Assembly (NCBI GenBank): GCA_019636345.1
Contig: JAHBXQ010000001.1
Coordinates: 463,985 to 527,984 of the forward strand
From: Pirellulales bacterium
Lineage (GTDB): Bacteria; Planctomycetota; Planctomycetia; Pirellulales; Lacipirellulaceae
DNA: 64,000 nt
Reading direction: 5' to 3'
Shown here: positions 5,980 to 8,486 of the stretch, in pieces
Layout: each line of letters starts with the position of its first letter
Numbering within the stretch: position 1 is the first letter of the stretch
Position numbers and translations under genes: made by a program
Notes under the pieces: model-generated
Told to the model about the DNA's origin: nothing
Seen by the model: only the letters and a program-made list of their open reading frames with translations
Databases searched by the model: none

Positions 5980-7377
5980 TCAATCTTCGGCCCGGCTGCC
6001 GTCGCCGCACATTTTGACGATCCGCGGATCGAACTGGGCGACGATCTCGACCAAGTCGGCCTGTGCCGCCATGACCCGGCGGATGTCTTTGTAGACCCCG
6101 GGAACCTCGTCGCTGCCGGCCGAGAGGACCTCGATCCCCCGCTCGGCCAACTCCTTCTTCACGTGTCCGATGCGGAAGGTGTTGTTCGCCTGCGTGCGCG
6201 ACATGCAGCGCCCCGCGCCGTGAGAGGCCGAGTCGAAGCTGGCCGCCGAGCCGCGCCCCCGGACGACGAACGCGGGGTCGGCCATCGAACCGGGAACGAC
6301 CCCCAGGACGCCGGCCGCGGCAGGGGTGGCGCCTTTGCGGTGGACCACTAGGGGCCGATCGCCGTGCCGCTCGAGCCACGCGAAGTTGTGATGATTTTCG
6401 ACCCCCGCGACGATCGCCGCCCCCAACAAGCTTGCGACCAGCCGGTGGATGACCGCGTGATTCGCCGCGGCGTACTCTCCCATGAGGTTCATCGCGGCCC
6501 AATATTCCTGCCCGGCCTGGGAATCGAGGTCGAGCCACGCCAACCGGCCCAGGTCCTTGTACTCGCGAGGGAGTTTCTGCTGAGCGATCGCCGAGTAGGT
6601 GCTGCAGACGGCCGCCCCCGCGCCGCGACTGCCGCTGTGCGACAGCAGCGCGACATATCGCCCCGCGTCGAGCCCCAGTTGCTGGTCCCGCTCAGCGAGC
6701 GTCAGCACGCCGAACTCGACGAAGTGGTTCCCCGAGCCGCTCGTGCCGAGTTGCTTCCGGGCCGTGTCTTTCCTATCGCGGGTGATCCGCGAAACGTTCC
6801 AGTCGGCGTCCATGACTGGATGATCCTGCGGCGGGCGATGCTCGACGCCGACGCCGAACCGCGTGCCGCGCTCCAAGGCGGTGCGGAACGGCTCGCGGCG
6901 CGTTTCGAGTCGCTCGACGGACGCGTCGAGGACCGAGAGCTTCATCCGGCAGGCGATGTCGACCCCGACGGCGTAGGGGATGACCGCATTCTCGCAGGCG
7001 AGCACCCCGCCGATCGGCAAGCCGTAGCCGACATGAGCGTCGGGCATGAGCGCTGCCCCGACGGCCTTCGGGACGCGGCAGGCGTCCCGCATTTGCTGGT
7101 GCGCAGCGGGGTCGATCTCGTCGCCCCAAGTTTGGTAGGTCGGCGGTTCATGCACCGGCAGGGCCGCGCGCCCGCTCAGCTCGCGGGCGAGTCCTCCCCA
7201 GATCGGGTCGTGCAGATACGTCGCCGGCGCCGCGACGACTTGCTGGACGAGCTCCTTGGCTCGTTTCCCTTTGAGCCCAAACCCCAGACCCTCGCAGGCC
7301 GCGGCGCGGAGCGCATCAATCGCCGCGGCCGCGCATTGCGGCGGGACGCCGAGCTTCTGCAATTGGCGACGGTTCAT
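5980..7377 (-). CDS. rtcB: RtcB family RNA-splicing ligase
   Basis: 465 aa. It joins RNA 2',3'-cyclic phosphate or 3'-phosphate ends to 5'-OH ends, using GTP and Mn2+. Conserved blocks in order: MPDAHVGYGLPIGGVL (about 120), GVDIACRM (about 145), GSGNHFVEFG (about 210), LSHSGSRGAG (about 240), ENHHNFAWLE (about 315), HRKGATPAAAGVLGVVPGSM (about 335), SHGAGRCMSR (about 375) containing the guanylylated His. Metal-binding Cys/His/Asp residues are kept. Start at ATG 7377 is chosen by homology; the open frame extends to 7599 but that extension overlaps the promoter region of the ncRNA on the other strand. No rtcA or archease is adjacent. Confidence 0.95.
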   Translation of the reverse strand: MNRRQLQKLGVPPQCAAAAIDALRAAACEGLGFGLKGKRAKELVQQVVAAPATYLHDPIWGGLARELSGRAALPVHEPPTYQTWGDEIDPAAHQQMRDACRVPKAVGAALMPDAHVGYGLPIGGVLACENAVIPYAVGVDIACRMKLSVLDASVERLETRREPFRTALERGTRFGVGVEHRPPQDHPVMDADWNVSRITRDRKDTARKQLGTSGSGNHFVEFGVLTLAERDQQLGLDAGRYVALLSHSGSRGAGAAVCSTYSAIAQQKLPREYKDLGRLAWLDLDSQAGQEYWAAMNLMGEYAAANHAVIHRLVASLLGAAIVAGVENHHNFAWLERHGDRPLVVHRKGATPAAAGVLGVVPGSMADPAFVVRGRGSAASFDSASHGAGRCMSRTQANNTFRIGHVKKELAERGIEVLSAGSDEVPGVYKDIRRVMAAQADLVEIVAQFDPRIVKMCGDGSRAED

Positions 7378-7605: not shown

Positions 7606-7636
7606 TTGCTCGACTTCGCCGGGCCGTGATTATAAT
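7606..7636 (+). promoter_or_regulatory. promoter of the 7.6-8.0 kb non-coding transcript
   Basis: Perfect TATAAT at 7631-7636, with TTGCTC at 7606-7611 as a suboptimal -35 (19-base spacer). A TG dinucleotide at 7627-7628 resembles an extended -10 with one extra base. Transcription would begin near 7643, just at the first hairpin. Confidence 0.5.
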
Positions 7637-7748
7637 GCAGCCGTAGGTCGTGCAGTACGCAGCACGACGGGCAATCCTGGCCGCTTGAAGCGTCCTCTGG
7701 CAGCGACGCCCCAAGCCGCTGAAACCCCGTAAGGAAGGAGGTGGTCCG

Positions 7749-7793
7749 TTGAACCTTTGTGAGATACGCCAGATTGGTGGTGCAAACCGTTGA
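7749..7793 (+). CDS. possible 14-codon leader peptide
   Basis: TTG start at 7749 placed correctly behind the strong Shine-Dalgarno AAGGAGGTGG, reading MNLCEIRQIGGANR then TGA. No homologue recognised. It lies inside the structured RNA and its ribosome site can be hidden by downstream pairing. It may instead be a non-translated part of an sRNA. Confidence 0.25.
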   Translation: MNLCEIRQIGGANR

Positions 7794-7936
7794 TCACCGG
7801 CGGGTGTCCAATGGCGGACGCCACCACCTGCTTCTGAGCGCCTGCTGCGGCGGACATGCCGTATGCCGACGACCGCCTGACGGCTTGGTCGGCGTGCAAT
7901 TCCGACGCGCATCTGGACTCAAAGCAACCAACGACG

Positions 7937-7976
7937 GCAGCCCGGTCGTCCTCGAGACGGCCGGGCTGCTTTTTTT
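7937..7976 (+). terminator. intrinsic terminator
   Basis: Fourteen-pair stem GCAGCCCGGTCGTC / GACGGCCGGGCTGC with a 5-base loop, then seven T residues from 7970. It terminates the plus-strand transcript starting near 7643; there is no ordinary gene just upstream on that strand. Confidence 0.88.
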
Positions 7977-8066: not shown

Positions 8067-8486
8067 ATGGACGACGACCAGCACGAATTGGAAGCGGCGC
8101 TCGAGTCGCAGCAAGCGCTCCTTGAGAGCTGTCTCCCCTTGGTGTTCGCCGAATACGACGAGGCGATCCAACGCAACGTGCCGACCCCCGTGGTCGTGCT
8201 CGTGGATTGCGAGGACGAGATCGGCGGCGAGATCGCCCGGGCGTGGGTCGGCGACGAGGCGGTCGAAGCGGCGATCGCCGAACAGGAATTCGCGCGCGAG
8301 TCGCCGGAGGAAACCACGACGTTCGCCCGCGTGGTGAGCTTCGCCGAGGCTCGGCGCGAGATCCCCGAGGTGTTCCCGTACTTGGCCCCGGCGTTGGCGA
8401 CGCCGCCGCAGGAGGGGTTTCTGGCGATTTCCGTGACGGCTGGCGGGGCGTCGGTGCTGACGGTGCCGCCGTCGGCCAGAGATTAG
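8067..8486 (+). CDS. conserved-looking hypothetical protein, acidic
   Basis: 139 aa, very acidic, without signal peptide or membrane segment. Sequence includes VVVLVDCEDEIGGEIARAW and a C-terminal half with FPYLAPALATPPQEGFLAI. I do not recognise the family. Codon pattern fits the neighbourhood and the frame closes cleanly 143 bases before the dehydrogenase gene. Start ATG 8067 (MDDDQHE) is preferred over an upstream in-frame start at 8013 that overlaps the ncRNA terminator zone. Confidence 0.6.
   Translation: MDDDQHELEAALESQQALLESCLPLVFAEYDEAIQRNVPTPVVVLVDCEDEIGGEIARAWVGDEAVEAAIAEQEFARESPEETTTFARVVSFAEARREIPEVFPYLAPALATPPQEGFLAISVTAGGASVLTVPPSARD

Follow-up and report, generated by a model that had tools for sequence, protein, structure and literature searches.

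The window, by which we mean the whole 64,000-nucleotide stretch of DNA analysed here, carries a structured RNA at 7641-7976, between rtcB and a gene for a 139-residue protein (Table 1). The minimum free energy predicted for the RNA, -155.7 kcal/mol, lies below that of 100 of 100 shuffled sequences (z -3.97). The first-pass annotation had assigned a promoter, a terminator and four hairpins to this segment. The terminator was found again by the terminator scan, and the hairpins were confirmed as well. The promoter could be upheld only in part: the TATAAT of the -10 element is nearly invariant among 13 relatives, but the -35 element TTGCTC, separated from it by a spacer of 19, is poor, and a strict sigma-70 scan called no promoter at the 5' end of the RNA. 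The 139-residue protein gave no Pfam match over the cut-off (CsoSCA_C, 14.2 versus 26.1 bits). In the window's family this conserved protein adjoins a dehydrogenase, which we take from its resemblance to be of the isocitrate/isopropylmalate type.

Table 1. Positions of the features at the RNA locus, in window numbering, and of viral-contig loci, in the numbering of each locus (SD, Shine-Dalgarno sequence)
Feature	Position	Strand	Basis or remark
rtcB	start codon near 7377	opposite	Pfam RtcB match
139-residue protein gene	8067-8486	same as RNA	3' neighbour
Promoter-like TTGC(TC) (7606-7611) and TATAAT (7631-7636)	7606-7636	+	sequence
Hairpin P1, GTCGTGC / GCACGAC, conserved loop ACG(C/T)	7647-7668	+	fold
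Hairpin P2, apical loop CCTCTGGCAG	7678-7720	+	fold
Pseudoknot 5' strand TCTGGC (P2 loop), partner GCCAGA at 7768-7773 in the ORF	7696-7701	+	covariation
Shine-Dalgarno sequence AAGGAGGTGGTCC	7735-7747	+	16S 3'-end complementarity; kept in homologs
Mini-ORF, TTG start, MNLCEIRQIGGANR, 14 codons (7749-7790), stop TGA (7791-7793)	7749-7793	+	homolog ORFs
SD-like copy GGTGGT within the ORF, 5' strand of P3, partner inside 7821-7828	7776-7781	+	permutation test
Hairpin P4a at the stop codon, GATCAC / GTGTC, loop CGGCGG	7792-7808	+	permutations, pair counts
Hairpin P4b, GGTGTCC / GGACGCC, exclusive with P4a	7803-7822	+	permutations, pair counts
Anti-SD-like strand CCACCACCTGCTTC, partner the ORF copy (P3) or the SD at 7734-7745	7821-7834	+	covariation; window fold
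Hairpin P5, closing stem GCTTCTGAG / CTCAAAGC	7830-7925	+	alignment of 13 relatives
Intrinsic terminator, 15-pair stem and T-run	7936-7976	+	terminator scan
Viral-contig SD and ORF loci	L202:3281-3297, L203:38-54, L218:11071-11087, L208:3867-3883, L225:9760-9776		

The Shine-Dalgarno sequence (SD) had been singled out as exceptionally strong, and it indeed pairs at 13 of 13 positions, including a single G-U pair, with the 16S rRNA 3' end of its own genome, GGATCACCTCCTT. From the observed and expected occurrences in the 64 kb, the SD alone is not beyond chance: AAGGAGGTG occurs once against 0.28 expected, and the 13-mer with up to two mismatches three times against 1.3. What places the complete feature far beyond chance is its conservation throughout the class. 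Four homologs (L094, L109, L123 and L134) have the SD weakened to AAGGACGGTG.

Of 39 related genomes searched by blastn with the element, 13 gave a match, every one of them from the window's family, and an alignment of 13 sequences contains invariant AAGGAGGTGGT, TTG, GCCA, GGTGG and CCGGCGGG as well as near-invariant CCACCACCTGCTT. Of 297 genomes sampled from the class, the covariance model R1 matched 117; in a phylum draw it matched 10 of 199. The model R2, built from 87 diverse members, recovered the RNA in 247 of the 297 sampled genomes of the class and left 50 without a match; at the threshold of E <= 0.01 about three chance genomes are expected, the E-values being rough to a factor of about five. 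These matches, nearly always at one place per genome, cover 220 of the 261 more complete genomes and 127 of the 154 genera of the class. L063 and L142 were removed as false model matches, and near-identical cores were merged before counting. Hairpins of the P1 type with the ACG loop are present in 77 of 87 dereplicated homologs. In the phylum draw, R2 matched 134 of 294 genomes at E <= 0.1, many of them expected by chance, and among the matches listed 47 genomes outside the class reached E <= 1e-3. In all 30 outside-class loci inspected, a strong SD is accompanied by an ORF 10-17 codons long, three of them (L242, L244 and L250, with ATG at +16 or +17) as judged by eye. At the gathering threshold, neither the window element nor 20 diverse homolog loci matched any Rfam family; 6S RNA was likewise absent from the Rfam results for both, and tmRNA was found neither in the window by ARAGORN or Rfam nor in the 20 loci by Rfam. 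An element with no Rfam match that nevertheless occurs once per genome in most of the class bears out the earlier suggestion of a new planctomycete sRNA family. Taken together, the model searches establish the RNA as a real family that is common to most of the class and weakly traceable in other classes of the phylum.

A separate blastn search, which started from a Phycisphaera record sharing a 21-mer, matched 10 of 120 genomes of that class. Six of the seven places inspected have an SD followed by an ORF of 9-10 codons, and L158 has 14 codons. In the Phycisphaerae version (L151-L155 and L161, at about 1470-1590 in each), ORFs such as LESKIGGLP and VLHDIGGLP have their stop within CTGCCGTAG..GGCAGC, for which CTACGGCAGC is an alternative partner; judging from these strands, this version can form a bistable stop-codon hairpin of different sequence.

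The homologs also allowed us to examine the fold by covariation. The loop of P2 pairs with codons 7-9 of the ORF in a pseudoknot, P3 joins the 3' half of the ORF to the downstream strand, usually as GGTGG/CCACC, and P4a, with the loop CGRCGG, adjoins or includes the stop codon. P4a and P4b share one strand and are mutually exclusive, yet both covary. For each of the pseudoknot, P4a, P4b and P3, none of 3000 permutations reached the observed value (n=86-87), nor did any of 5000 for P3 as the pairing of the SD-like copy in the ORF with the downstream strand, all in permutation tests that leave common descent in. The value for the pseudoknot comes from narrow segments, which replaced a test with wide segments that had given a weak excess (observed -15.30 versus -14.49 in the permutations, sd 0.29, most extreme permutation -15.43). 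Where the loop reads NTGGC and the ORF reads GCCAN, the pseudoknot pair is C-G (CTGGC/GCCAG) in 29, T-A (TTGGC/GCCAA) in 15, T-G in 3, C-A in 5 and A-A in 3, and Fisher's test on the C-G, T-A, T-G and C-A counts gave 1.9e-6. The T-A pair occurs in three families (the window's family, f15 and f22), and other compensations are GCTGGTA/TACCAGC in L046, TGTTGGT/ACCAACG in L053 and GCTACAA/TTGTAGC in L055. P3 is compensated as GGGGAAG/CTTCCCC in L120 and as GGTTGA/TCAACC in L127. Over 87 sequences, both sides had changed in 45 cells for P3 plus P4a against 17 in shuffles, and in 62 cells for the SD helix plus P4b against 9, the alignment for the latter count being fitted to P4b and not to P4a or P3; the cells changed on both sides numbered 42 for P4a and 52 for P4b. 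Outside the class, P3 and P4a again each gave 0 of 5000 permutations with 22 dereplicated sequences, after 4 of the 30 loci lacking the loop motif and 4 with a duplicate ORF segment had been left out; examples of the pairings are GGGCTGCGC/GCGCAGCCC in L198 and GTGGGTTG/CAACCCAC in L235. On this covariation we consider the pseudoknot, P3 and the exclusive hairpins P4a and P4b to be real. The ORF thus lies inside a covarying switch, which lends structural support to the translational gating that had been proposed from the window alone.

The gating had originally been attributed to a downstream strand masking the SD. The pairing of 7734-7745 with 7823-7834 at 11 of 12 positions is exact as described and is part of the window's minimum-energy fold. 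Among homologs, the pairing of the SD with the 3' part exceeds that with shuffled 3' parts (17.99 versus 14.18). When own and swapped partners were compared, 6 of 5000 permutations reached the observed value, and 63 of 5000 without the window's family, so that masking is weakly supported by comparison; the downstream strand covaries instead with the SD-like copy in the ORF. The SD-masking pairing is real in the window but is the least conserved helix of the RNA. P5 often has GGATCACC, which copies the 3' end of 16S rRNA and matches the RNA's own SD, as in L042, L045 and L055, where it lies about 60-90 nt past the stop codon, or less.

All 120 distinct homologs have TTG, GTG or ATG at a distance of 13-16 nt, counted from the base that begins the SD, and frame 0 closes at codon 11-18 in 120 of 120, versus 8 and 0 for the other two frames; 92 of the 120 had passed an earlier filter requiring an ORF of 8-20 codons, and the other 28 (27 rejects of that filter and L064), examined without an ORF-length criterion, all had the ORF. 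The start codon is GTG in 86, TTG in 31 and ATG in 3, and the stop codon is TGA in 48, TAG in 46 and TAA in 26. The distance from the start to GGTGG is 24, 27, 30, 33, 36 or 42, all multiples of three, in 115 of the homologs, and the phase is broken in five (L118, L140, L120, L131 and L137). Since starts, stops and in-frame lengths vary in this way, the mini-ORF, which in the window is the 14-codon TTG ORF of the first-pass annotation, is most likely translated.

The peptides of the class tend to C-x-S-Q-R-G-G-x-A. Apart from one basic residue, their conserved positions show nearly no synonymous change (Cys is encoded by TGT in 45 of 46 and Ser by AGC in 54 of 54); the nucleotides of the Cys and Ser codons are conserved because they form part of the pseudoknot and P3. 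Within the class, synonymous change is free only at the basic residue before Gly-Gly (CGA 47, AGA 16, CGG 4, AGG 3 and AAA 9 of 92). In the loci from outside the class, the reading frame through AGGTGG is a different one, giving RRW and not RGG, and the peptides diverge widely. The low synonymous change and the other reading frame together suggest that selection seems to keep the act of translating more than the peptide, the sequence of which seems secondary. This bears on the alternative that the product of 13-14 residues is what matters and that the RNA structure is its control region. Such a small-peptide gene would account for the frequent Cys and for the one position at which a basic residue is conserved at the amino-acid level in the class; the other conserved residues lie in paired strands, and the change of frame and the divergence of the peptides also argue against it, so that we regard it as unlikely. 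Type I toxins are short hydrophobic peptides, and by reading the peptides here are polar or basic.

The first-pass annotation had left open whether the RNA is a leader or an sRNA. A terminator-like site follows the RNA in 75 of 82 homologs, compared with 163 of 952 control windows. Outside the window's family, the first recognised conserved gene within 700 nt downstream, called by an ORF-and-homology heuristic, runs opposite to the RNA in 30 loci and in the same direction in 16, and 51 loci have no such gene (n=97). Of 19 loci in the window's family, 14 have it on the same strand, 3 have it on the opposite strand (one of them the window's own call, probably a spurious frame) and 2 have none. 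There, 10 of the 12 neighbourhoods searched (the window, L017, L018, L020-L022 and L024-L027) have the 139-residue protein gene as a same-strand 3' neighbour, often about 100 nt past the terminator, which would fit a leader in this family. The RNA is retained in L023, where a convergent gene intervenes and 3.9 kb separate the RNA from the 139-residue protein gene, and in L019, where that gene was not found within 5 kb. Because the neighbouring genes change and are often convergent, we rejected a leader of the downstream gene as the general role, there being no consistently co-oriented 3' gene. A functional link to rtcB or to McsA/McsB/PPK2 was also discarded, since these genes adjoin the RNA in no more than some parts of the window's family. 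The terminator sites, the varying neighbours and the two exceptional neighbourhoods together make a stand-alone candidate sRNA, forming its own unit, the best reading of the comparison.

The same neighbourhoods weigh on a cis-acting attenuator, in which translation of the mini-ORF would control whether transcription continues past the terminator into the gene beyond. Its ORF resembles a leader peptide, and the same-strand gene in the window's family is what an attenuator would call for; L023 and L019, the prevalence of convergent genes outside the family and a terminator stem that in the window does not overlap P3, P4 or P5 all speak against it, and we find it quite improbable. A decoy in which the 13-nt SD titrates the 16S 3' end (or the 30S subunit) and the ORF is incidental would explain a maximal, nearly invariant complementarity, but it would leave unexplained why start, frame, stop and ORF length are kept despite in-frame length changes and why an intricate covarying switch surrounds the ORF, and it is very unlikely.

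We therefore favour, with a probability of roughly 55%, a stand-alone RNA of about 330 nt, the fold of which is read out by ribosomes and which acts in trans as a regulator reporting translation status. A 30S subunit would bind the maximal SD and start the ORF of 13-14 codons. The idle or initiating RNA would hold the pseudoknot, P3 and P4a, all of which a ribosome at the last codons and the stop would have to open. P4b could then form, and the anti-SD-like downstream strand, which resembles the anti-SD of 16S rRNA (CCACCTCCT in L044, L047 and L062), would be freed. Because the ribosome would open P3 and P4a and P4b would form, the fold would report whether the ORF is translated. The freed strand could cover the RNA's own SD, so that ribosomes would be admitted singly, or could act on other RNAs. 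As no gene follows the RNA consistently, the output is most likely in trans, through the freed strand or an exposed CGRCGG loop; on this model the RNA probably acts in trans and may be a built-in sensor of translation.

Partition functions were computed for 82 homologs. With a 30S-sized footprint on the SD and start codon, the predicted probabilities were 0.76 for P3, 0.55 for P4a and 0.17 for P4b. With a ribosome on the stop codon, P4b reached 0.52 versus 0.23 in the free RNA, rising in 51 of 82 homologs and falling in 9; only this rise is informative, because with the ribosome in that position P3 and P4a are excluded by the design of the simulation. The predicted free fold of the window's RNA (L001) has the SD masked and P3 absent, and its P4b falls from 0.34 to 0.03 with a ribosome at the stop codon.

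The idea may be extended, more tentatively, to a phylum-wide class of stand-alone, riboswitch-like RNAs gated by the ribosome as their ligand, which they would detect through a maximal SD and a mini-ORF whose end lies in a bistable stop-codon hairpin, with output in trans on translation; through RNAs like CC2171 the class might reach further. We consider this doubtful, though if true such a class would be a general sensor of translation capacity. A single-copy structured RNA that spans most of the class, can be followed through the phylum and has no Rfam entry points to a basic cellular role, and the design suggests that cells can read translation itself through a free-standing RNA. This is directly testable in genetically tractable planctomycetes and with the CC2171 RNA of Caulobacter.

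The combination of a maximal SD, an obligate mini-ORF and a three-way covarying switch with no consistent 3' gene is unlike textbook attenuators. In leader-peptide attenuators of the trp, erm and tnaC type, a short ORF with its own SD is translated and translation selects between alternative hairpins. The RNA described here differs from them in having no consistent 3' gene and in switch hairpins that are separate from the terminator. Dual-function sRNAs of the SgrS and RNAIII type are stand-alone RNAs with a small ORF. Our RNA differs from these in that a covarying switch encloses the ORF, the sequence of which is dictated largely by RNA pairing. It has in common with the dual-function sRNAs, as far as the available part of a survey describes them (PMC5521070), its probably stand-alone nature and small ORF, and the frame, starts, stops and lengths in the homologs indicate an ORF under selection to be translated. 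The accessible parts of the open-licence PMC literature searched, including PMC11701678, PMC5596092, PMC2864571 and PMC5521070, contain no description of the SD/mini-ORF RNA. The Rhodopirellula-1 motif, a candidate RNA from Planctomycetes and Proteobacteria, is marked there as ambiguous and probably cis-regulatory and carries no Rfam accession (PMC2864571, Table 1, the part of that source used here); our RNA is set apart from it by description alone and could be identical. With Rhodopirellula-1 compared by description only, the best reading of these partial sources is that the RNA was previously undescribed.

The nearest named RNA is the CC2171 sRNA of Alphaproteobacteria (RF01867). The window scores 21 bits with its model (E 0.024), far short of the gathering threshold of 75, and the model found no match above the cut-off in the window's own genome. 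The portions of PMC11701678 and PMC5596092 at hand mention no ORF for CC2171. Its Rfam consensus, AAAGGAGGUGAUCCAGUG, nevertheless has a maximal SD with GTG at the same +14 spacing, and the pattern AAGGAGGUGRUCC followed by a start at +14 is present in the window at 7735-7751. The consensus also shares a long-range helix, in which a downstream strand pairs with the would-be ORF, and a terminal hairpin. Five viral-contig loci (Table 1), none of which reaches the Rfam cut-off for CC2171, carry AAGGAGGTGATCCAGTG followed by short ORFs such as VSYSKRCHLAGIAR and VSHCHQSRAVAATLVLGEVRA, and two of them, L202 and L218, have a tRNA gene nearby. By analogy with CC2171 their hosts are probably alphaproteobacterial, and from their sequences these loci look like they share the design of an SD and mini-ORF.
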